DNA from: Agrobacterium sp. RAC06
Lineage (GTDB): Bacteria > Pseudomonadota > Alphaproteobacteria > Rhizobiales > Rhizobiaceae
Direction: 5' to 3'
Assembly (NCBI RefSeq): GCF_001713475.1
Contig: NZ_CP016499.1
Location: 3,907,501-3,971,500, forward strand
DNA length: 64,000 nt
A program made the position numbers and the translations under genes. This document shows, piece after piece, positions 45,868-55,975 of the stretch. Each line of letters starts with the position of its first letter. Within the stretch, counting starts at the first letter, position 1. The notes beneath the pieces were generated by a model. It made no database searches, was not told the DNA's origin, and worked only from the letters and a program-made list of their open reading frames with translations.

Positions 45868-45877
45868 GGGGATGGCG

Positions 45878-47026
45878 ATGAACCTGACACGGCGCAAGAT
45901 GATTTTCCTTGTTGGCGGCGGGGCTGTTCTGGCAGCCGGCGGTGCCTTCGGATACGCGGCGACACGCATGCCGCAAACGGCTTACCTTCCCTGGGAGCTC
46001 GCGGGCAGCTATGAGGACCCGCGGATGCGGGCCCTGTCATGGGCGCTCCTGGCCCCGAACCCGCACAATCGCCAGCCGTGGCTGGCGGATGTGTCCGAGG
46101 ACGGCGTTATCACGCTGCATGCGGACACTGACCGCCTCTTGCCACACACCGATCCCTTCAACCGACAGATCGTGATCGGGCTGGGGTGTTTTCTGGAAGT
46201 CCTGCGCATGGCCGCAGCAGAAGATGGCTACCGCGCCGCCATGACGCTCTTCCCGCTCGGCAGCAGCGCCACGGCCCTCGACCGACGCCCCATCGCGCGC
46301 ATCACCCTCACAGCTGATCCGACGGTTGCGCGCGATCCCCTATTCGCACTGGTGCCGGCCCGGCGCTCCAACAAGGAACCGTTCGACATGAGCCGCCCGC
46401 TCGCACCCGACATGCTTGCGCAGATGGCTGCGGCAGCCAGCAACGGCACGCGGTTCGGAGGCACTATTGACCCGGCGGAAACGGCCAAATTGCGCGCGTT
46501 GACGCGCGAAGCGCTGCGAATCGAGGTCGAGACGCCGCACACCTATCAGGAGAGCGTCGATCTCTTCCGTATCGGACGCCGGGAAGTGGATGCCAACCCT
46601 GATGGCATCGACTTTTCGGGACCTATGTTCGAAACGATGCACCTGACAGGCATGTTCAGCCGTGAAATCGCGGCCGACCCGACGAGTTTCGCCTTCAAGT
46701 CCGGCATGGACGCGATCTACGCCAATGCCGATACCGCGATGGGACATGTCTGGTTGGTCGCCGCCGACAACAGCCGCGAAACGCAGATCGCCACGGGGGC
46801 GGACTGGCTGCGCGTCAACCTTGCAGCGACGGATCTGGGCCTTGGGTTCCAGCCCCTCAGCCAGGCCTTGCAGGAGTTTCCGGAGATGGCAGGGCCCTAC
46901 GGCCAAGTGCATGAACGCCTTGCACCAGATGGGGGCACGGTTCAAATGCTGTCGCGCATCGGCTATGGTCCGGCTGCCGGAAACAGCCCGCGTTGGCCTT
47001 TGGAGAGCAGGATCATGAATGTCTGA
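45878..47026 (+). CDS. Acg-family FMN-binding nitroreductase-like protein, exported
   Basis: A 382-residue protein. It starts with a twin-arginine-like TRRKMIFLVGGGAVLAAGGA signal or anchor, so it is probably in the periplasm or membrane-attached. The body is the Acg/nitroreductase fold: ALLAPNPHNRQPW, RQIVIGLGCFLEVLRMAA, RRSNKEPFD, and the FMN-site GADWLRVNLAATDLGLGFQPLSQALQEF. Members bind FMN, and some lack classical nitroreductase activity. AGGGG gives best spacing to the second of two ATGs (45878). It overlaps the marR gene by 8 bases and is controlled by the palindromic promoter upstream. Confidence 0.88.
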   Translation: MNLTRRKMIFLVGGGAVLAAGGAFGYAATRMPQTAYLPWELAGSYEDPRMRALSWALLAPNPHNRQPWLADVSEDGVITLHADTDRLLPHTDPFNRQIVIGLGCFLEVLRMAAAEDGYRAAMTLFPLGSSATALDRRPIARITLTADPTVARDPLFALVPARRSNKEPFDMSRPLAPDMLAQMAAAASNGTRFGGTIDPAETAKLRALTREALRIEVETPHTYQESVDLFRIGRREVDANPDGIDFSGPMFETMHLTGMFSREIAADPTSFAFKSGMDAIYANADTAMGHVWLVAADNSRETQIATGADWLRVNLAATDLGLGFQPLSQALQEFPEMAGPYGQVHERLAPDGGTVQMLSRIGYGPAAGNSPRWPLESRIMNV

Positions 47027-47474
47027 AAGCGCAATGCCCGACTACTTCCGGCTCTTCAACGAAATCGGCATCATCGGGCAGCTTTCACGCAGCCTGCTGG
47101 AAGCCCGGTTGCCGCCGGGCTTCGTTGCAGCGCAATTTTATGTGTTGAACCATTTGGTCCGCGTGGGCGACGGCCGCACGCCTCTTGCCATAGCCAGCGC
47201 CTTTCAGGTGCCCAAGACATCGATGACGCACTCGCTGGCCGTTCTGGAACAGGCGGGCCTGATCGAGATCCGCAAGAACCCTGGGGATGGCCGATCAAAA
47301 CTGGTCCACATTACGGATGCAGGGCGAAAGTTCCGGCAGGATGCGATCGACGCACTCGCGCCAGATCTCAAGCGGATTGCAGCCGCCGTTCCCCCTGACC
47401 ATGTCGCGCGCTTGCTGCCTGATCTCGAAGTGTTGCGGAAATTCCTCGATACAGACCGTGACGCTTCACCATAG
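47019..47474 (+). CDS. MarR-family transcriptional regulator
   Basis: A 151-residue winged-helix regulator: QLSRSLLEARLPPGFVAAQFYVLNHL, TPLAIASAFQVPKTSMTHSL as recognition helix region, and the wing IRKNPGDGRSKLVHITDAGR with the conserved DGRSK. The start ATG lies inside the nitroreductase gene (8-base overlap). The 11-bp inverted repeat at 45826-45867 is its likely operator, giving an autoregulated pair that responds to a small, probably electrophilic or phenolic, ligand. The ligand is unknown. Confidence 0.9.
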   Translation: MSESAMPDYFRLFNEIGIIGQLSRSLLEARLPPGFVAAQFYVLNHLVRVGDGRTPLAIASAFQVPKTSMTHSLAVLEQAGLIEIRKNPGDGRSKLVHITDAGRKFRQDAIDALAPDLKRIAAAVPPDHVARLLPDLEVLRKFLDTDRDASP

Positions 47475-47708: not shown

Positions 47709-48782
47709 CTACCCAAACAACCGCTCATCCCTCGCAACAAAAAACGCCTCGACGCTCTCCGGCGCCACATCCTCCAGCGTCGCCGGGGACCATTTCGGGT
47801 TCCTGTCCTTGTCGATGATCGCAGCCCGGATGCCTTCGTAGAAGTCGGGGACCTTGACCACTTGGCAGGTGCCGGCGAATTCGCGTTCGAGGCAGGTTTC
47901 GAGGTCCTTGGAGCGGCGGGCCTCGCGCAGCATCCTGAGCGTCACCTTCAGGCTGGTCGGCGATTTCGCGCGCATGGCGATAAGCGTTCTGTCGGCGAGG
48001 TCTCCGCCTTCTTCCTCTAGGGCTGCGACGATCTCCTCCACCGTGTCGAAGGCGAAGCAGCGGTCGATCATGTCGCGGCCTTCGGAGAAGATGCCTTTCG
48101 GGCCGTCCACCGTGTAGTCGCGGATCGTCGAGGCGATCGATTGGCCAAGGGCGGGTGCAGGTAGGGCTGCGATCCGCTCCAGCAGTTCCGCTACGCGGTC
48201 CTGCGGAACATACCAGTCGGCAAAGCCCGCGGTGATGGCATCCGCGCCGTTCACCGCCTCGCCGGTTAGGCCCATCCAGGTGCCGAGTTCGCCGGGTGCG
48301 CGGGAGAGCAGCCAGGTGGCGCCGATATCGGGGAAGAAGCCGATACCGGTTTCGGGCATGGCGAGTTTCGTCGTTTCGGTGACGATGCGGTGGCTGCCAT
48401 GGCTGGAGACCCCGACGCCGCCGCCCATGGTGATGCCGTCCATCACGACGATGTAAGGTTTCTTGAAGCCAGCGATGCGGGCATTCAGGCGGTATTCGGC
48501 CTTGAGGAAGTGGGAGGCCTTGCCATCGCCGGCCTTGCCGCTTTCATAGAACATCCTGATGTCGCCGCCGGCGCAAAGCCCGCGCTCGCCCTCGCCGGTG
48601 ACGAGCACGGCTGCGACTTGCGGGTCGGCCTCGAAGGCATCGAGCGCCTTGCCGAAATCCAGGATCATGTCGTGGGAGAGACTGTTCAGCACACGTGGTC
48701 GGTTGAGTGCCACAAGGCCGAGCGCGCCCTTTTTCGCCGTCAGGATTTCCCCGCCCTGATAGTCCGCCTCCAGATAACGCAT
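47709..48782 (-). CDS. 3-hydroxyisobutyryl-CoA hydrolase / enoyl-CoA hydratase family
   Basis: A 357-residue crotonase-fold enzyme of the ECH_2 class. The oxyanion-hole segment RGLCAGGDIRMFYE, the long MDGITMGGGVGVSSHGSHRIVTE and MPETGIGFFPDIGATWLLSRAPG are typical of 3-hydroxyisobutyryl-CoA hydrolases in valine breakdown, which ends in propionyl-CoA. This links it loosely to the pcc genes. The alternative is an isomerase-type paralogue. It ends at a gap with a repeat remnant and starts with a simple ATG after GGGAGGACGGC. Confidence 0.88.
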   Translation of the reverse strand: MRYLEADYQGGEILTAKKGALGLVALNRPRVLNSLSHDMILDFGKALDAFEADPQVAAVLVTGEGERGLCAGGDIRMFYESGKAGDGKASHFLKAEYRLNARIAGFKKPYIVVMDGITMGGGVGVSSHGSHRIVTETTKLAMPETGIGFFPDIGATWLLSRAPGELGTWMGLTGEAVNGADAITAGFADWYVPQDRVAELLERIAALPAPALGQSIASTIRDYTVDGPKGIFSEGRDMIDRCFAFDTVEEIVAALEEEGGDLADRTLIAMRAKSPTSLKVTLRMLREARRSKDLETCLEREFAGTCQVVKVPDFYEGIRAAIIDKDRNPKWSPATLEDVAPESVEAFFVARDERLFG

Positions 48783-48854
48783 GCCGTCCTCCCTTGTCTT
48801 TTGAAAGAGTTAGACATGCGTCGCGGCCAAAGGGCAAGGGCTGCCTTGGTTGGA

Positions 48855-49811
48855 TCAGGTCACGAGATTGCGCGGGGTCCCTGCGAGAAAGAGCTCGATG
48901 TTCTCGATCAACTGGTCGGCCAGCGCCTGGATCGCCTCGCGACTTGCCCAGGCAACGTGCGGCGTGAGGATGACGTTTTCTCTGTTAGCAATGCGCATCA
49001 TTGGGCTGTTTTGTGCGGGCGGTTCGCCATCGGTCACGTCGAAGCCGGCGCCGGATATCTGGCCGGCATCGAGCGCCTTTTCCAGCGCCAGTTCGTCGAC
49101 GAGACCGCCACGGCCGGTGTTGATGAGCAATGGGCGGCGCTCCATCAGGGCGAATTCCCGCTCACCGATCACGCCGCGGGTTTCCGGTGTCAGCGGGCAG
49201 TGGAGGGTGATGACGTCAGAGCGCTTCAGGACCTCGTCGAAGGCCGTCTGGCCCGGCTTCAGTTCTGTTGCGCCGCGACGACCGGCGGCCAGCACCGTCA
49301 TGCCGAAGGCCTCGGCGATCTTTCCCACCGACTGGCCAAGCGTGCCATGGCCGATGATCCCGAGCGTCGAGCCACCGAGGTCGGCGATGGGATAATCGAA
49401 ATAACAGAATTGCGCGGCCTGCTGCCAGCGTCCCTCGATCACCGACTGGCGATAGGGCAGGATCGACCGACGCAGCGCGAGCATCAGGGCGAAGGTGTGT
49501 TCGGGCACCGTGTGCTTGGCGTAGTTCCTGATGTTGCAGACGGCTATGCCACGCGCCTTGGCCTCGGTGAGATCGACAATGTCGGTGCCGGTGGCGGAGA
49601 CGGCGATCAGCTTCAGCTTCGCGGCGCCGGCGAGCGCCTCGGCACGGACAGGGGCCTTGTTGGTGATCACGACATCGGCGTCGCGGATGCGCTCAGCCAC
49701 TTCATGCGGGGCGGTGCGGGCATGGACCACCATCTCATGCGGCATCGAGGGCGCGCGGACCACGGTTTCCGGCGACAGCGTGTCGCGGTCGAGAAAGACG
49801 ATGCGGATCAT
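48855..49811 (-). CDS. D-2-hydroxyacid dehydrogenase (glycerate dehydrogenase-like)
   Basis: A 318-residue NAD-dependent dehydrogenase. Visible: substrate loop VSATGTDIVDL, nucleotide-binding LGIIGHGTLGQSVGKIAEAFG, catalytic Arg in LINTGRGGLVD, Glu in FDVTDGEPP and His in LTPHVAW. It reduces a 2-ketoacid such as hydroxypyruvate or glyoxylate. GGGAGG lies seven bases before the ATG. It is 59 bases downstream of the glutathione S-transferase gene on the same strand, so it may close that operon, but the link to the Rieske genes is uncertain. Confidence 0.9.
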   Translation of the reverse strand: MIRIVFLDRDTLSPETVVRAPSMPHEMVVHARTAPHEVAERIRDADVVITNKAPVRAEALAGAAKLKLIAVSATGTDIVDLTEAKARGIAVCNIRNYAKHTVPEHTFALMLALRRSILPYRQSVIEGRWQQAAQFCYFDYPIADLGGSTLGIIGHGTLGQSVGKIAEAFGMTVLAAGRRGATELKPGQTAFDEVLKRSDVITLHCPLTPETRGVIGEREFALMERRPLLINTGRGGLVDELALEKALDAGQISGAGFDVTDGEPPAQNSPMMRIANRENVILTPHVAWASREAIQALADQLIENIELFLAGTPRNLVT

Positions 49812-49870: not shown

Positions 49871-50497
49871 TCAGTGGTAATCCGGTACGCCCGGCATGGT
49901 GATGAAGCCTGAAAGCGCGCGGAAGCGGCGTAGCCAACGGCGAAGGGCCGGGTATTCGTCATGGTCGATGCTGCTGTCGCGCGACAAAGCGAAGCTCGGA
50001 AGGAGTGCCAGATCGGCCAGCGTTGGGGTGTTGCCGACGAACCAGTCTGATCCTTCGACCTGCCGCAGCGTCATGTGGTCTTCCATGATGCGGAAGGCTT
50101 TGCGGGCTGCCTTGAGATCCGTCTCGCTTGCGCCCTCTGAGGTGAAGAGAGCTGCCTCGCGGGCGTCCACGGCGTGCTTCAGTTCGCGGCCGGAAAAGCC
50201 CAGCCATTGCTGGACGCGGCCGAAGTCTGCGGCATCGGCCGGCAGCCAACCACTGTCGGGCGCATGAGCGCGGACGAGATAGGCGAGGATCGCAGCCGTG
50301 CCGAAAAGCCTGACGTCGCCGTCCTCAAGAATGGGCAGCGTGCCGGTCGGGTTGAGCGCCAGCATATGCGGCATTTCCTGCTCGCGGCCGGGTGCCTTGT
50401 CGACGGCAACCGTCTCAAAGGAAAGGCCGAGCATGGAGAGGAGAAGGCGGACGCGAAAACCGTTTTCGTCGAGGTGGTAATCGTAAAGCCTGATCAT
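49871..50497 (-). CDS. Glutathione S-transferase family protein (NdmE-like position)
   Basis: A 208-residue GST: N-terminal thioredoxin-like domain (MIRLYDYHLDENGFRVRLLL, then ALNPTGTLPILEDGD and a Ser-less FGTAAILAYLV) and a C-terminal helical domain with TPTLADLALLP. The stop of the Rieske gene and this ATG share one base (TGATG), so they are translated together. In the caffeine N-demethylase system a GST-like protein, NdmE, holds together a Rieske-less oxygenase and a Rieske-bearing partner; the gene order here suggests a like role. A detoxifying GST is the alternative. Confidence 0.9.
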   Translation of the reverse strand: MIRLYDYHLDENGFRVRLLLSMLGLSFETVAVDKAPGREQEMPHMLALNPTGTLPILEDGDVRLFGTAAILAYLVRAHAPDSGWLPADAADFGRVQQWLGFSGRELKHAVDAREAALFTSEGASETDLKAARKAFRIMEDHMTLRQVEGSDWFVGNTPTLADLALLPSFALSRDSSIDHDEYPALRRWLRRFRALSGFITMPGVPDYH

Positions 50498-51168
50498 CAC
50501 GCTGCCTCCACCATCTGGGCTTCAACGCGGTTGCGCAGCTCCGTGGCCCAGAGGATCAGGTCGCGGCGAAGGGCTGCGGCGGTGTGTCCGGTCACCGTGA
50601 TGTGCAAGGCGGTCCGGCCGGCGTTGCGGGGTTGGGCTGCGATCAGGACGGTCACGTCGTTCCCTTGCAATGTCACTGTGCCGGTCTCGCTCTCGACCGG
50701 CCGGTACCCCTCGGGTGGGGCTGCCGTCACCGCCAGCAAAGCCGCGTTCGTCGACAGGTCGAGGAAGAGGCTGCGAACGGGTTCAGCCGTCTCGGGTAGT
50801 GTCGAGAGCTCGGCCGCATCTGCTCCGTCCGGCGCCATCCAGACAATGCCGGCGCGTTCGGTTGCGGCAAAGGTCGGGACCTTGATGGTCTGGGGTACCT
50901 CGAGATCGGGATGGGCCGGGATGTAGCGACATAGGCCTGACGTGTCATAGCGCCAGCCGTGATAGAGGCAGGCGATGTGGTCGCCGCGCACGAAGCCGAA
51001 GCTCATGCGCATGCCGCGATGCGGACAGCGGTCCTCCCAGACGTGGATTTCGCCCTCGTCGTCACGCCAGACAACACGTTCCTCGCCGTTAACGAGCGTT
51101 CCGGCGGAGGTGCCGGTTTCGATGTCGGCGGAGAGGGCAACGGGGATCCAGGGAGAGGCTGATGTCAT
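50497..51168 (-). CDS. Stand-alone Rieske [2Fe-2S] protein
   Basis: A 223-residue protein. Residues 5-115 are an oxygenase-type Rieske domain with all cluster ligands: Cys48, His50, Cys67 and His70 (CPHRG and CLYHGW). No mononuclear-iron motif (ENxxDxxHxxxxH) follows; residues about 120-223 form an unrecognised small domain. A Rieske domain cut loose from its catalytic domain is unusual. The divergent gene at 51563 encodes a catalytic domain missing exactly this part, so the two probably work as a split oxygenase. Overlaps: ATGA with the upstream acylphosphatase-like gene, TGATG with the GST gene. Confidence 0.92.
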   Translation of the reverse strand: MTSASPWIPVALSADIETGTSAGTLVNGEERVVWRDDEGEIHVWEDRCPHRGMRMSFGFVRGDHIACLYHGWRYDTSGLCRYIPAHPDLEVPQTIKVPTFAATERAGIVWMAPDGADAAELSTLPETAEPVRSLFLDLSTNAALLAVTAAPPEGYRPVESETGTVTLQGNDVTVLIAAQPRNAGRTALHITVTGHTAAALRRDLILWATELRNRVEAQMVEAA

Positions 51169-51446
51169 GATGCGGCCTTTGCGGGCAGGTCTTCGTCGGT
51201 TTGAAATCTTGATACGTCAAGCACGATGCTGTCATAGGGGCCGAGGCTAACAGCCATTTCGAAGGCGTCGATCAGGGCTTCCGGGCCTGATAGTGTCAGG
51301 CGACAGCGATCGTGGTCGCAGGCCGCAATCGTCAGCCCGAGCGACAGGCGCGCAGCGCGATGTTCGGCAAACGCAATGAAGCCCTGCGGCTCCAGCCTTC
51401 CGGAAAAGGTGAAGCCGACGGTCATATGGTCGGCTTTCGCCGTCAT
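51165..51446 (-). CDS. Degenerate acylphosphatase-like protein
   Basis: A 93-residue protein whose pattern follows the acylphosphatase fold: TFSGRLEPQGFIAFAEHRAARLSLG, then a G-like ALIDAFEMAVSLGP and SIVLDV. The catalytic Arg normally after GVGF is Ile (QGFIAF) and no catalytic Asn follows, so it should be inactive and may bind or scaffold. The start is uncertain (51446 or 51425; no strong ribosome site). It is the first gene of the acylphosphatase-like, Rieske, GST run and overlaps the Rieske gene by 4 bases. The fold call is by eye and moderate. Confidence 0.6.
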   Translation of the reverse strand: MTAKADHMTVGFTFSGRLEPQGFIAFAEHRAARLSLGLTIAACDHDRCRLTLSGPEALIDAFEMAVSLGPYDSIVLDVSRFQTDEDLPAKAAS

Positions 51447-51562
51447 CGGATGGGGATCAGTGTTGCCTTGCAATTGTGCGCGCTCTAATTTTTGGGCAAT
51501 CTAGCGGCGGGCGAGATCGGGTTTCAAGCGGTTTCTCCCGTGCTCCAGAGGAAAGACAGATT

Positions 51563-52420
51563 ATGCAGAACGGTATCGACAAGGCGTCGCTTGATCAGTG
51601 GTATGTGCTCGATACCGAGGCGGTGATCCCGGTTGGTCGATCGCAGAACCGGCTGCTCGGGACGGATCTTACCGTCGTCAAGCAGGCGGATGGGGCGATC
51701 GAGGTCTTTGCCCAGGGGCGGGCGGAGCCGCTGCCGCTACGCCATCGCTTCGGCTTTCTCTGGGCGACACTGGGCCAGCCCGAGCGCGAGATCTTTCCGC
51801 TGCCGGAGGCCGACGAGCCTGATAGACGCTACGTGCCCTGCGGTGTGGTCACCGTGAAGGCATCAGGTCTTCGCATCGTCGAGAACTTTCTCGACATGGC
51901 GCATTTCCCCTTCGTCCATACCGACGTTCTGGGGGCAGAGCCGCATACGGAAGTGCAGAGCTACGATGTCGAGATCCGGCGCGAGGCAGACGAGGTCTGG
52001 GCGACCAACTGCACCTTCTTCCAGCCGCAGGCCGCTCTGTCTGCGTCTGACGGTATCACCACGCAATACATGTACCGGGTGATGACGCCGTTCACGACGA
52101 TCCTCTATAAGACTTGTCCCAACGCCACCAATCGCTGGGATGTCATCGGCCTCTTCGTCCAGCCGCTTGATCCTGGCCGCTGCCGGGCGCATCCGATCAT
52201 GTATCTGATCGACGATGTCTCGACGACGACGGAGCTTATCCATTTCCAGCAGATGATCTTCCTGCAGGACCGGATTATACTGGAAAACCAGCGGCCCGTG
52301 CTTCTGCCGCTGGAACCGCGCAAGGAAGTGCCGACGCGGGCCGACGCGTCCTCGATCGCTTATCGCCGCTGGCTGAAGGAAAAGGGCGTGACTTACGGCG
52401 CCAGCACGGTGGCCGCCTGA
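51563..52420 (+). CDS. Rieske-oxygenase catalytic subunit lacking its Rieske cluster site
   Basis: A 285-residue protein of the vanillate/N-demethylase-type Rieske oxygenase family. The N-terminus keeps the beginning and end of a Rieske domain (WYVLDTEA, then LLGTDLTVV; RHRFGFLWATLG) but the CxH...CxxH part between about residues 50 and 60 is gone. The mononuclear iron site is intact: Asp111, His114 and His119 in VENFLDMAHFPFVH, and Asp236 in FLQDRIILENQ. It needs electrons from a separate Rieske protein, probably the divergent 50497-51168 product. GAGGAAAG supports the start at 51563; an in-frame start 29 codons upstream is rejected. Confidence 0.9.
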   Translation: MQNGIDKASLDQWYVLDTEAVIPVGRSQNRLLGTDLTVVKQADGAIEVFAQGRAEPLPLRHRFGFLWATLGQPEREIFPLPEADEPDRRYVPCGVVTVKASGLRIVENFLDMAHFPFVHTDVLGAEPHTEVQSYDVEIRREADEVWATNCTFFQPQAALSASDGITTQYMYRVMTPFTTILYKTCPNATNRWDVIGLFVQPLDPGRCRAHPIMYLIDDVSTTTELIHFQQMIFLQDRIILENQRPVLLPLEPRKEVPTRADASSIAYRRWLKEKGVTYGASTVAA

Positions 52421-52486: not shown

Positions 52487-52684
52487 TCAGCTGCGGCTCA
52501 TCCAGTCGTCGATCTCGCGATCGGCTTCTTCCTGGGTCTTGCCATAGGCAGCCTGGATCTTGCCGGAGAGTTCCGTGCGCTTGCCGGCGATGACGTCGAG
52601 ATCGTCACCGGTCAGCTTGCCCCACTGGCTCTGGGCCTTGCCCTTGAACTGTTCCCAATTGCCTTCGATCTGATTCCAATTCAT
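52487..52684 (-). CDS. csbD: CsbD-family stress protein
   Basis: A 65-residue CsbD protein: MNWNQIEGNWEQFKGKAQSQ, WGKLTGDDLDVIAGK, and a GKIQAAYGKTQEEADREIDDW tail. These small hydrophilic helical proteins are general-stress markers in many bacteria, of unclear mechanism. The start follows GGGAGAAATCCG. A GGAAC-N17-CGTT promoter lies 54 bases upstream, placing it in the EcfG regulon. Confidence 0.92.
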   Translation of the reverse strand: MNWNQIEGNWEQFKGKAQSQWGKLTGDDLDVIAGKRTELSGKIQAAYGKTQEEADREIDDWMSRS

Positions 52685-52737
52685 CGGATTTCTCCCGTGT
52701 TGGTGAAATGTCGAGGCGTGATGTCCTCGGCGCTGAA

Positions 52738-52763
52738 AACGTCGGCGGCCGGACGGAAGTTCC
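52738..52763 (-). promoter_or_regulatory. EcfG-type promoter of csbD
   Basis: On the minus strand GGAAC (52763-52759), a 17-base spacer and CGTT (52741-52738) match the alphaproteobacterial general-stress sigma factor consensus. It faces csbD. Confidence 0.78.
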
Positions 52764-52834
52764 ACTGTCCAGTAAGGGGCGCGTCAAGATTCGGGTCGGC
52801 CTTGCCATGGCTAAGAAAAGCCCGGGTACATGAT

Positions 52835-52859
52835 GGAACACTCGCCCTGTCTCGGCGTT
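52835..52859 (+). promoter_or_regulatory. EcfG-type promoter of DUF883 operon
   Basis: GGAAC (52835-52839), a 16-base spacer and CGTT (52856-52859) match the EcfG consensus exactly, 43 bases before the DUF883 gene. Confidence 0.85.
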
Positions 52860-52902
52860 CTTGTTGTGAACTGCATTTCATGAACAAGCGAAGGAGAATT
52901 CC

Positions 52903-53256
52903 ATGGCCCAGGTACCGAGCGCCTCCAAAAGCAAGATCGAAGCGACGGCAAACGATTTCGCGGACCGCATCGAAGACACGGCGAATACGGCGGGTACCGC
53001 AACCAGCGGTGACGTCCAGGCCGACCTCGAGGCCCTGCGCCGCGATATCGCTGCGCTGACCCAGACCGTTGCCTCCTTCGGTGGCGGCAAGATCCGTCAG
53101 GCCGGTGAAACCTCGCAGGAGTACATCGACAGCGCGCGCGAGCGCTTCATGAATGCCGAAGAAGACATCGAGGCCTATGTTCGCGCCAAGCCGCTTCAGT
53201 CGCTCGCCATGGCAGCCGGCGTCGGCTACGTCCTTGCGCTTCTCAGCCGGCGCTGA
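52903..53256 (+). CDS. DUF883 (ElaB/YqjD-like) protein
   Basis: A 117-residue protein with a long helical, coiled-coil-prone body (residues about 8-85: ADLEALRRDIAALTQTVASF) and one C-terminal membrane segment (LQSLAMAAGVGYVLALLSRR), the classic DUF883/ElaB tail anchor. E. coli homologues tether ribosomes to the inner membrane in stationary phase. It precedes a holin-like membrane gene by 2 bases and has an exact EcfG promoter, so it is part of the stress island. Confidence 0.9.
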   Translation: MAQVPSASKSKIEATANDFADRIEDTANTAGTATSGDVQADLEALRRDIAALTQTVASFGGGKIRQAGETSQEYIDSARERFMNAEEDIEAYVRAKPLQSLAMAAGVGYVLALLSRR

Positions 53257-53258
53257 TC

Positions 53259-53702
53259 ATGCTGCCACTCCTTAGACAACTAGGCATCGTCGCCTTTGGC
53301 AAGGTGCGGCCGACCGCCAACAAGGTCGGGCGCTCAGTGATGGCGGGTGCGATCGCCGGTGTGTTGGGGCTGACGACCTATGTCGCGCTGCTTCTGGCGC
53401 TCGGATTCTACCTGAGCGGCGTGATCGGTCCAGTCTATGCGGCTCTGGTCATTGCTGGCGTGACGGCGCTTTGCGCCATCATCGTCATTGTCGTGGTTCA
53501 GGCGATCAACCGTCGCGCCGAACGGCGCATGGAAGCCCGTCAAAGGGCTGCAAGGGCACGGCTGCCTGATCCGATGACGCTGCAGCTATTGGCCGGTGTG
53601 CCGGCGCTGATGAAGGGACGGTCCCTGCTGACTGCCGCGGCGATTGCAGCGGTCGCCTACGGGGTCGCCAAATCGCAAGGTATCGGCAGCGATCGTGATT
53701 GA
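53259..53702 (+). CDS. Holin-X/YqjE-like inner-membrane protein
   Basis: A 147-residue protein with two strong membrane segments (about residues 26-54 and 58-85) and a third weaker one near the end (LLTAAAIAAVAYGVA), separated by a basic RRAERRMEARQRAARAR linker. It resembles the phage-holin-X or YqjE family that pairs with DUF883/YqjD genes in stress operons. Despite the family name there is no phage context. Coupled start two bases after the DUF883 stop. Confidence 0.82.
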   Translation: MLPLLRQLGIVAFGKVRPTANKVGRSVMAGAIAGVLGLTTYVALLLALGFYLSGVIGPVYAALVIAGVTALCAIIVIVVVQAINRRAERRMEARQRAARARLPDPMTLQLLAGVPALMKGRSLLTAAAIAAVAYGVAKSQGIGSDRD

Positions 53703-53720
53703 CGAGCGCTTTTGATTGCA

Positions 53721-53744
53721 GGCTGGGCTTTTCGAAGCCCGGCC
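53721..53744. terminator. Possible terminator after holin-like gene
   Basis: An imperfect hairpin (GCTGGGCTT-TTCG-AAGCCCGGC, one mismatch) lies in the 51-base gap between convergent genes. No clear T-run follows, so the function is only probable. Confidence 0.4.
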
Positions 53745-53753
53745 GTCGACATG

Positions 53754-53951
53754 TCAGGGTTTCCTGGACCTGGCTTCTGCTTCCGCGTCGTGAAGCCTTT
53801 CCAGCAGGTCGAGAAGATGTGACGGAGTGCCTTCTTCCACGATGCTGTCGTAGTATCCACGAAGCTTTGAAGCTATGAGCGCGTTCGTGTTTTGCCGCTT
53901 TGCCTCGGACAGTTTCTTCGATTTGTTTCCATCCGGAGGGCCTTCAGCCAT
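53754..53951 (-). CDS. nepR: NepR-family anti-sigma factor, copy 1
   Basis: A 65-residue protein with the NepR core ASKLRGYYDSIVEEGTPSHL followed by LDLLERL. NepR binds and silences EcfG until phosphorylated PhyR takes it away. It stands alone on the minus strand, divergent from phyR; the usual nepR-ecfG pair is a second copy at 58105. Sequence outside the core differs greatly from copy 2. No EcfG promoter with a good match points at it, so it may be expressed differently. Confidence 0.85.
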   Translation of the reverse strand: MAEGPPDGNKSKKLSEAKRQNTNALIASKLRGYYDSIVEEGTPSHLLDLLERLHDAEAEARSRKP

Positions 53952-54034
53952 GTCTGTCCAGTTCCGTCAGTTTGCCAAGCGAGACGACAATTAACGTGAT
54001 AAGCCCGAAGAGGCAAAAAAGTTCCAAAGACGAT

Positions 54035-54059
54035 GGAACATTTTTTTCCGAGCCGCGTT
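54035..54059 (+). promoter_or_regulatory. EcfG-type promoter of phyR
   Basis: GGAAC (54035-54039), a 16-base T-rich spacer and CGTT (54056-54059) match the EcfG consensus, 44 bases before phyR, implying positive feedback of the stress response on its own response regulator. Confidence 0.85.
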
Positions 54060-54103
54060 TTCTGCCGAGTCCGCACCTTTATCCATTTCGATTGGAGAAC
54101 TGC

Positions 54104-54898
54104 ATGTCCCTTACTGCCCGCGTCGCTGTCCATCTTCCTTACCTGCGGCGTTATGCTCGCGCCGTCACCGGTTCGCAGACTTCCGGAGATGCCTATGTCG
54201 CAGCGGTCCTGGAAGCGCTGATCGCCGACATCTCCATTTTTCCCGACACTGGTGATGACCGTGTCGCTCTCTACAAGCTGTTCGTGACGATCTACGATTC
54301 AACCAAGGTCGAGCTTCCGCAGATCACCTCGCCCTTTGCCTGGGAAAAGCGGGCCGCCGCCAACCTTGCATCGGTGCCGACGCGCGCGCGCCACGCCTTC
54401 CTTCTGATCACGGTCGAAGGCTTCACCACCTCTGAAGCGGCCAGTGTGCTGAGCGTCGGCGAAGCCGAATTCAACGCGCTCTTCAACGAGGCCTCGATGG
54501 AAATCTCCCGCCAGGTGGCCACCGATATCATGATCATCGAAGACGAGCCTCTGATCGCGCTCGACATCGAGCAGATGGTCGAAGACCTCGGTCACCGCGT
54601 GACCGGCATCGCCCGTACCCATGCCGAAGCCGTCGATCTCTACAAGCGTACCAGCCCGAAAATGGTCCTCGCCGACATCCAGCTTGCGGATGGAAGCTCG
54701 GGCATCGATGCCGTGAACGACATCCTCAAGGTCGATAGTATCCCGGTCATCTTCATCACGGCATTCCCGGAACGTCTGTTGACCGGCGAGCGTCCGGAGC
54801 CTGCCTTCCTGGTCACCAAGCCGTTCAACCCCGACATGGTCAAGGCTTTGATCAGCCAAGCGCTTTTCTTCAACGAGCGCGTGACCGAGCAGGCTTGA
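54104..54898 (+). CDS. phyR: PhyR, general stress response regulator
   Basis: A 264-residue regulator with the defining PhyR architecture: an N-terminal sigma-factor-like domain (residues about 8-135, HLPYLRRYARAVTGSQTSGD; TVEGFTTSEAASVLSV) and a C-terminal receiver (acidic pair Glu146-Asp147, phospho-acceptor Asp191 in VLADIQLADGSSG, Lys in VTKPF). When phosphorylated, the sigma-like domain mimics EcfG and binds NepR. The start at 54104 follows GGAG at seven bases; in-frame sequence upstream contains the promoter and is excluded. It lies 87 bases before a HWE-type kinase gene. Confidence 0.96.
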   Translation: MSLTARVAVHLPYLRRYARAVTGSQTSGDAYVAAVLEALIADISIFPDTGDDRVALYKLFVTIYDSTKVELPQITSPFAWEKRAAANLASVPTRARHAFLLITVEGFTTSEAASVLSVGEAEFNALFNEASMEISRQVATDIMIIEDEPLIALDIEQMVEDLGHRVTGIARTHAEAVDLYKRTSPKMVLADIQLADGSSGIDAVNDILKVDSIPVIFITAFPERLLTGERPEPAFLVTKPFNPDMVKALISQALFFNERVTEQA

Positions 54899-54985
54899 TA
54901 TAGCTCTTTTGGGGCATAGGTTAGAGCGAGGAATGGACCGGCAGACGGAGCCGGTCCCAGATGCCGATTATGGCGGAGCAGGCAA

Positions 54986-55975
54986 TTGGTACATCGGTTG
55001 ACATGGTTTGAACCTCAGCGCGGCGACGAACAGCTGCGGGAGTTCTTCATAACCGCGCTCATCGATATGGGCGCCAGCCTCACCCTTCAGGATAAAGATG
55101 GTACCTATGTCTGCATCACCTCGCTGCCGGCTCGCTGGCGGCTGGCGGCGGGCGCAACTCCGTCCGACGACACGATCTTCGGGCCGGAGATCGGGCAAAA
55201 GCTCGCTGAGCTGAAGTCCGGGCTCGATAAGGCCGGGGATCATGCGGAGCTCGAGATCGAAGCTGGAGACGATACTTTCTTCGAATTCCGCTGCCGCATG
55301 GTCGAGATGGCGGATCACGACTTGCATCTGATCACCGTCGTCATCGATCGCACCGAAGACCGGCGTCGTGAAAGGCTTTTGCGCGCACTGCTGCGGGAAG
55401 TCAGCCACCGGTCGAAGAACCTTCTCGCCATCATCCAGAGTATCGCATCTCAGACGGCCCGTTATTCCGGGACGCTGGACATGTTCCTCGGAAAATTCCG
55501 GGGCCGGCTGCATGCCCTGTCCCAGTCGCAAGACCTGATCACCGACTCCAGCTGGCGGGGGGCCTATTTCCGCGATCTCCTCAAGCAGCAGGTCGATCGC
55601 TACGTTCAGGAAAACGCCGATCTGGTCCATGTGTCCGGCGACGACGTTCTTCTGACACCCAATGCTTCGCTGCATATCGGGCTTGCCCTGCATGAGCTGG
55701 TTGTCAATGCCGTCAGCCATGGCGATTTCCTGCAGCGGCGTCAGCCGATCGAGGTCTCGTGCCGGAAGCTCGAAACGCCCGCGGGTCCGGTGGTGGTGAT
55801 CGTCTGGTCCGAACCATTCACCGCGCGCGAAAACGAAGAAGTCAAGGCGGCCCGCTTCGGCAGCACCGTGCTGGAACGCGTTGTTCCATCTTCGGTGAAC
55901 GGCGAGGCGCATCACGAACTGACAGACGGACAGGTGCGGTACGAGCTGCGCTTTCCGCTGGAGATCTTCGACTGA
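54986..55975 (+). CDS. HWE/HisKA_2-family sensor histidine kinase (candidate PhyR kinase)
   Basis: A 329-residue soluble kinase. Residues about 20-125 form a PAS-like sensor domain (FFITALIDMGASLTLQDKDG), followed by the HisKA_2 H-box with His141 (LREVSHRSKNLLAIIQSIAS) and an ATPase domain with LHELVVNAVSHG. No membrane segment. Kinases of this class control PhyR in alphaproteobacteria, and this gene lies directly after phyR, so it is the best candidate. It starts at TTG 54986 behind GGAG; no in-frame ATG would keep the PAS domain. Confidence 0.88.
   Translation: MVHRLTWFEPQRGDEQLREFFITALIDMGASLTLQDKDGTYVCITSLPARWRLAAGATPSDDTIFGPEIGQKLAELKSGLDKAGDHAELEIEAGDDTFFEFRCRMVEMADHDLHLITVVIDRTEDRRRERLLRALLREVSHRSKNLLAIIQSIASQTARYSGTLDMFLGKFRGRLHALSQSQDLITDSSWRGAYFRDLLKQQVDRYVQENADLVHVSGDDVLLTPNASLHIGLALHELVVNAVSHGDFLQRRQPIEVSCRKLETPAGPVVVIVWSEPFTARENEEVKAARFGSTVLERVVPSSVNGEAHHELTDGQVRYELRFPLEIFD

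Follow-up and report, generated by a model that had tools for sequence, protein, structure and literature searches.

A putative trans-Rieske oxygenase of the NdmCDE lineage with a free-standing Rieske subunit in Agrobacterium sp. RAC06

A four-gene locus of Agrobacterium sp. RAC06 poses the question of whether a catalytic oxygenase subunit that lacks a Rieske cluster and a neighbouring Rieske protein that lacks a catalytic site form one enzyme and, if so, whether the pair was assembled on its own or belongs to an established lineage. The locus lies in a window of 64,000 nucleotides (assembly GCF_001713475.1, contig NZ_CP016499.1, forward-strand positions 3,907,501 to 3,971,500) of a genome of 4.96 Mb in two contigs. 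We refer to the catalytic subunit as OX and to the Rieske subunit as RI; they are accompanied by a protein resembling glutathione S-transferases (GST) and by an acylphosphatase-fold protein (AP). An initial annotation, made from the sequence alone, had likened the genes to NdmC, NdmD and NdmE and had read them as an independently assembled trans-Rieske oxygenase with a GST scaffold, an acylphosphatase-like fourth part and a substrate unknown. We find that the locus is a real and conserved system, a variant of the NdmCDE kind that is commoner in its order than the fused form and has an unusual likely origin. As the best explanation of the whole, to which we give a probability of about 0.72, we take the genes to encode a non-heme iron oxygenase of trans-Rieske type that belongs to the NdmCDE lineage and has its Rieske protein free of any reductase.

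Complementary metal sites on two proteins

The only Pfam family that OX matches above its cut-off is PF19112 (VanA_C); the Rieske family, PF00355, is not matched. Asp111, His114, His119 and Asp236 are each present in all 206 aligned members of the OX family. From the fold, we take His114, His119 and Asp236 to be the iron ligands and Asp111 to be the bridging residue; the initial description of an iron site without Rieske ligands therefore stands, although counting Asp111 with the ligands was slightly loose. The flanking pieces WYVLDTEA ... RHRFGFLWATLG are remnants of a Rieske domain, as had been suggested: OX residues 11–66 match the Rieske domain of RI in a profile comparison (probability 84.8, E = 6.5e-6), and OX aligns over its full length with undivided relatives, its cluster loops alone being missing (E = 1e-49). 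The predicted model of OX aligns to GxtA residues 2–334, with a two-domain fold overall. The best 120 of 4,368 homologues are all annotated with PF19112, none with a Rieske domain, and are 279–299 amino acids long; because they share this annotation and length, the missing cluster is not a sequencing error, and a frameshift is likewise ruled out by the conservation of OX and its family-wide Rieske-less state. The Rhizobium rhizophilum protein is 99% identical to that of the window.

RI matches PF00355 and retains the four Rieske ligands that had been attributed to it, with Cys48 and His50 in 195 of 196 family members (the other has a gap) and Cys67 and His70 in all 196. It ends at 223 amino acids with no reductase domain, and so differs from the NdmD-type reductase fusion; neither OX nor RI holds both a Rieske and an iron site in one chain, as an undivided alpha subunit does. 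The ligand sets of the two families are thus complementary. One scan of viral contigs found no relatives of RI.

By the initial annotation's own reckoning, relatives in which the genes never co-occur would have spoken against it. Two genome samples, which have at least six OX-bearing genomes in common and for which cut-offs were fixed after the scores were seen, instead show complete co-occurrence. A split OX (at least 278 bits) is present in 39 of 249 genomes of the order, and the identical 39 carry either RI (26 genomes) or, in frames of 573–1,023 amino acids, the NdmD-type fusion (13); judged by score, coverage and frame length, neither is present in the 210 genomes without OX (Fisher P = 2e-46, not corrected for kinship). 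Across 398 genomes of the phylum, OX (at least 313 bits) occurs in 15, and the identical 15 carry RI (8) or the long-frame type (7). The next matches below OX and RI are mostly undivided oxygenases with frames of 329–400 amino acids, reached by both queries. The RI cut-off in the order sample falls in a narrow gap (122 versus 113 bits), so that coverage and frame length were used too, and 4 of the 26 free-standing RI proteins (G010, G021, G067 and G085) match only columns within the first 142–152 of the 226 in the profile. Among the phylum genomes, the undivided proteins of G556 and G319 score like some NdmD-type proteins and are separated by coverage and frame length alone, and OX is matched only in part in G540 and G549, the frame in G540 (437 amino acids) being shorter than the other fusions. 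The free-standing form is the commoner one in the order, a statement limited to the order because all three OX-bearing genomes outside the class of the window have the long-frame type.

These results support the proposed trans-Rieske oxygenase with a GST partner, and suggest how it would work. Oxygen would be activated at the mononuclear iron of OX, and electrons would be carried by RI, so that the two functions lie on separate proteins. In ordinary Rieske oxygenases, a cluster and an iron that face each other between subunits are about 12 Å apart (PMC12445004, PMC10380055). The GST-like protein most likely catalyses no reaction and keeps OX and RI together, and AP, which lacks the usual catalytic residues, would probably be another component for assembly or docking. 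RI would receive its electrons from an NAD(P)H reductase encoded at an unlinked site. The host genome contains VanB-type candidates, among them a protein with FAD, NAD and ferredoxin domains (L182:3579–4562) that is encoded beside an undivided oxygenase elsewhere and is a candidate donor only. No NdmD- or VanB-type reductase was matched at E = 1e-5 in the window, in agreement with the initial annotation, or in 94 related loci (L001–L094). We also fetched 20 loci with a free-standing RI (from 20 of the 26 genomes) and 11 of the NdmD type (from 11 of the 13). Against the scheme, a reductase gene is found in 2 of the 20 free-standing-RI loci and was not found in the other 18, and the model of OX is of lower confidence (mean pLDDT 79), falling below 50 at residues 117–126, the stretch that contains His119.

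The counts place NdmCDE in a family that is present in 39 of the 249 genomes sampled from the order and reaches into other classes of the phylum; two thirds of the cases within the order lack the fused reductase and usually have the additional acylphosphatase-like protein. Such loci offer simpler objects with which to test how a Rieske cluster feeds electrons to iron across chains, what function an oxygenase derives from a GST-like protein and by what route an enzyme of two domains turns into an obligate pair.

Ancestry of the split

Excerpts of reviews that cover NdmCDE from Pseudomonas putida CBB5 describe NdmC as lacking a Rieske cluster, NdmD as having an extra one and NdmE as postulated to be structural (PMC4408171). 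They report a 3:3:3 complex and NdmC that, produced alone, goes to inclusion bodies (PMC10380055), as well as N7-demethylation of 7-methylxanthine (PMC4408171, PMC10380055). The system is termed very unique among Rieske oxygenases, and homologues of unknown function are noted in 18 organisms, mostly Sinorhizobium and Mesorhizobium (PMC4408171). The locus in the window shares with NdmCDE the Rieske-less oxygenase, the separate Rieske protein and the GST-like subunit, but its Rieske protein is free-standing, without a reductase, and an acylphosphatase-fold gene is added. In the literature searched, which was represented by excerpts and did not include the 2013 NdmCDE paper, no NdmC-type protein is described as having a Rieske partner that stands free, and no paper found there combines acylphosphatase, Rieske and oxygenase.

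Homology was established against proteins of the NdmC, NdmD and NdmE types from Sinorhizobium and from a Klebsiella plasmid, the CBB5 proteins themselves lying outside the comparison. In the Klebsiella cluster, a gene for an NdmB-like protein (matching solved NdmB at E = 1e-186) and one other gene precede those for an NdmC-type OX, an NdmD-type protein that combines Rieske, NAD-binding and ferredoxin domains, and a GST. OX of the window is 48% identical to this NdmC-type protein (L130:8977–9822), RI is 26–33% identical to NdmD-type proteins and the GST is 35–39% identical to NdmE-type GSTs. When RI is compared by profile with the N-terminal 235 residues of nine NdmD-type proteins, the match spans 214 columns (E = 1.3e-45), and the part of RI beyond the Rieske domain also matches (E = 1.2e-7).

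Phylogenies agree with this picture. In the Rieske-domain tree, RI and the NdmD type separate into two clades (98/95 and 99/94), which group together against undivided relatives (90/83). The OX tree, built without L150 (a wrongly framed row) and NdmB (a long branch), separates both types from undivided relatives at 100/100 and recovers a free-standing-RI clade at 84/66; the best tree does not unite the NdmD-type proteins in a single clade, but such a clade is not rejected (p-AU = 0.424). GSTs from both types of locus form one group (100/100), separate from five of six outside GSTs, the sixth, very long-branched, falling inside. A single origin of the split fits these sequences best, with moderate support at some branches. 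The analogy drawn by the initial annotation was right, but independent assembly is rejected, since each of the three proteins has homologues of the corresponding Ndm type and the trees fit one ancestry.

The ndmCDE homologues of Sinorhizobium pSymA have the same subunit families and an adjoining BMP-type transporter, but they carry the NdmD-type fusion, and S. meliloti pSymA has two OX copies. HpxDE is a related Rieske oxygenase linked to purine catabolism; however, HpxD is undivided, has a separate reductase gene adjoining and is 26–30% identical to OX, and it falls among the undivided outgroup of the OX tree rather than closest to OX. NdmA, NdmB, SxtT and GxtA differ from the window pair in having both domains and all ligands in one chain. 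By sequence, the closest solved relatives of both OX and RI are SxtT and SxtDIOX/GxtA, with NdmA in rows 3–4 for OX and 4–5 for RI; the closest solved structures to the two models are SxtT and GxtA, NdmA being close behind among Foldseek's own matches, which do not exclude families left unlisted. Undivided Rieske oxygenases related to OX also lie beside BMP-type binding proteins or transporters in L147–L150 and L136, including on a cyanobacterial plasmid.

How the split arose can be proposed from the predicted models. Both the OX and the RI model match undivided subunits structurally from end to end, RI aligning to GxtA residues 5–289, which suggests that OX is a whole subunit minus its cluster loops and RI a whole subunit with a shrunken catalytic domain. 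The two would then be copies of one undivided oxygenase subunit that were reciprocally worn down, and the initial statement that the cluster loop was lost, although right for OX, would tell half the story. Evidence that the Rieske protein may serve more than one catalytic subunit comes from 8 of the 39 order genomes (G034, G069, G099, G121, G136, G150, G198 and G237, counted by eye), each with two split OX copies and one strong RI or NdmD-type match. Our tentative account, which we hold at slightly less than even odds, is one of reciprocal wear of two copies of a whole purine oxygenase subunit, not cutting, with the Rieske/GST module as a shared electron-delivery unit; the free-standing form with its dead-acylphosphatase adaptor would be the commoner in the order, and NdmCDE a sister branch in which the module became fused to a reductase. 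Against the account, the RI C-terminus matches the catalytic domain weakly by sequence profile (E = 0.044, probability 1.2) and gave no usable match to a profile of the undivided-oxygenase set; because this sequence link is weak, the shrunken catalytic domain is proposed mainly from the predicted model. The same profiles are what favours an unrelated domain at the RI C-terminus, the pair having arisen when one protein simply split or when a Rieske ferredoxin was recruited. We regard that origin as unlikely, given the structural matches of both models.

A deep-branching locus (L151:2115–5480) encodes OX, RI, GST and a separate FAD/NAD/ferredoxin reductase beside RI; AP was not found in it. It is a possible intermediate between the free-standing and fused forms, and its separate reductase gene fits a later fusion in the NdmD branch. 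On Cupriavidus plasmid p352-3 (L139:9001–12415), overlapping pieces that carry Rieske and VanB-type annotations adjoin an unannotated OX match, with a formaldehyde dehydrogenase downstream; an NdmD-type gene may have decayed or been misannotated here.

Partner proteins, neighbourhoods and substrate

Both additional partners named by the initial annotation hold up. The GST of the window matches PF02798 and PF00043. PF00708 is matched by 15 of 20 members of the AP family, the window copy itself being unmatched, and solved acylphosphatases in the PDB match AP by profile (E = 4e-6). In alignment columns read by eye, and with the roles and motif of the catalytic residues as we presume them to be, the column of the catalytic Arg holds Arg in 1 of 20 members and that of the catalytic Asn holds Asn in none, which rules out AP as a working acylphosphatase.

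Among 80 related loci, a set that leans to close kin because it is the best 80 of 527, AP lies beside OX in all 80; the other two, RI and GST, do so in 79, every locus but one that ends at a contig edge. Three layouts recur: that of the window, with AP, RI and GST divergent from OX; the same arrangement in which OX is surrounded by purine deaminases and the operon of a BMP transporter; and a co-linear AP–RI–OX–GST–amidohydrolase–transporter series in Rhizobium johnstonii 3841 pRL10 and Shinella zoogloeoides, in which RI and OX overlap by four bases. The BMP transporter is present in 56 of the 80 loci and a guanine deaminase match in 47. A Rhizobium tumorigenes plasmid has two OX genes with a single RI and GST, and two plasmid loci (L003, cut at the record start, and L004) have OX without the other parts in the stretch covered.

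Comparison of the 20 free-standing-RI loci (covered over 12–38 kb) with the 11 NdmD-type loci shows GST in 20 of 20 versus 10 of 11, AP in 18 of 20 (doubtful in L167, a weak, distant match 6 kb off) versus 0 of 11, a BMP binding protein in 11 of 20 versus 7 of 11, and a purine-type amidohydrolase (at least 50% identity) in 11 of 20 versus 1 of 11. Formaldehyde dehydrogenase (at least 60% identity) occurs in 2 of the 11 NdmD-type loci (L157 and L178, which belong to the family of the window) versus none of the 20.

These neighbourhoods of relatives point to a purine-type substrate, narrowing what had been left as unknown. Beside OX in relatives are a guanine deaminase (419.9 bits, cut-off 375.4), an 8-oxoguanine deaminase (616.9, cut-off 532) and an adenine deaminase-like protein that scores under its cut-off (345 versus 472.5); the PDB entries closest to the binding protein are an atrazine periplasmic binding protein (6pi5) and a basic membrane lipoprotein (3s99). 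A purine, modified or not, is the most likely substrate, and it would be oxidised by N-demethylation or ring hydroxylation. The data also suggest that rhizobia carry out a purine-type oxidation step as yet uncharacterised. Xanthine dehydrogenase is above cut-off in 37 of the 39 OX genomes (counted by eye) versus 101 of the 210 others, not corrected for kinship. A plain replacement of this enzyme is thereby ruled out, and OX probably handles something that xanthine dehydrogenase does not. Two facts count against a purine: the best host-genome relatives of the three purine-island proteins tested are distant (transporter binding protein 31% identical, guanine deaminase 34%, adenine deaminase 33%), so that the assignment is by descent and not from the window's own neighbours, and the purine-type amidohydrolase is absent from 9 of the 20 free-standing-RI loci within the stretches covered. 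No Rfam family reaches its gathering score in the window, L001, L005 or L006, and the idea of a xanthine riboswitch is therefore without support there.

Our first choice, possible rather than probable, is demethylation: the enzyme would remove an N-methyl group, for example from 7-methylguanine or methylxanthines, releasing formaldehyde and a purine for guanine deaminase or xanthine dehydrogenase. The identity of OX to an NdmC-type protein, the activity of NdmCDE on 7-methylxanthine (excerpts of PMC4408171 and PMC10380055), the frequency of xanthine dehydrogenase in OX genomes and the guanine deaminase beside OX all favour it, but formaldehyde dehydrogenase accompanies 2 of the 11 NdmD-type loci and none of the 20 free-standing-RI loci. 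That same absence speaks for a ring hydroxylase, which would act directly on a free purine or a heterocycle such as pterin and feed deaminases in the manner of HpxDE. The 8-oxoguanine deaminase above its curated cut-off lies beside OX in relative L063, and the full-length relative HpxD is recorded as a subunit of a molybdenum-cofactor-independent xanthine hydroxylase; hpxDE take part in hypoxanthine and xanthine oxidation, according to excerpts of PMC7373994. We rank hydroxylation second and consider it doubtful, as xanthine oxidation would be redundant in genomes that keep xanthine dehydrogenase and HpxD is a distant relative of OX. It is very improbable that the genes merely persist in the clade of the window and ceased to cooperate once the purine island was lost. 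The purine genes and transporter are indeed absent beside close window-type loci, and the three purine-island proteins tested have only distant relatives elsewhere in the host genome, but the ligands and four-gene arrangement are kept in those loci, with OX 95–99% identical.

An extended island in R. tumorigenes (L006:1–8400) and in L173:2143–8195 includes a second Rieske-less oxygenase, an amidohydrolase, a GMC oxidoreductase and a sulfopyruvate-decarboxylase-like enzyme of two subunits that depends on thiamine pyrophosphate (TPP); the R. tumorigenes copy also has a molybdopterin gene of xanthine-dehydrogenase-like type. The island resembles the LumK/LumL and LumJ steps of lumichrome breakdown as given in excerpts of PMC12746152 and may be an uncharacterised heterocycle pathway.

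Features of the window

The coordinates and reading frames of the initial annotation are unchanged (Table 1). AP and RI overlap by four bases, and RI and GST have one base in common, as had been noted; because the frames overlap in this way on the same strand, AP, RI and GST probably form a translationally coupled operon, divergent from OX. Translation of AP more likely begins at one of the in-frame ATG codons, at 51446 and 51425, than at the TTG.

Table 1. Positions of the split oxygenase genes and their sites within the window
Feature	Position	Strand	Evidence
OX, Rieske-less oxygenase catalytic subunit (NdmC-type), 285 amino acids	51563..52420	+	PF19112 E = 7e-23, no Rieske match
OX residues 11–75, degenerate Rieske domain without cluster loops	51593..51787	+	profile match and end-to-end alignment
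OX Asp111, His114, His119	51893..51919	+	conserved 206/206
OX Asp236, presumed third iron ligand	52268..52270	+	conserved 206/206
RI, Rieske subunit without fused reductase, 223 amino acids	50497..51168	-	PF00355 E = 2.7e-23
RI Rieske ligands Cys48, His50, Cys67, His70	50959..51027	-	kept in 195–196/196
RI residues 129–222, predicted shrunken catalytic-type domain without iron helix	50503..50784	-	
GST-like subunit (NdmE-type), 208 amino acids	49871..50497	-	PF02798 and PF00043
AP, acylphosphatase-fold protein, 102 amino acids from TTG start	51165..51473	-	
Divergent intergenic region between AP and OX	51474..51562		sequence

Downstream of GST (47709–49811) lie an ECH_2 enoyl-CoA hydratase/isomerase-family gene and a D-2-hydroxyacid dehydrogenase gene, with no obvious functional link to the split oxygenase; in 15 and 16 neighbouring loci there are families of equal length, an assignment made from length and position only. 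At 45872–47474, a gene overlaps that of a MarR-type regulator by a few bases; its product has an apparent export signal and matches the nitroreductase family weakly, below the Pfam cut-off. On the other side of the locus (52487–55975), CsbD-like, DUF883-like, response-regulator-like and histidine-kinase-like genes, identified from their translations only, stand in a row that is suggestive of a general stress response region.

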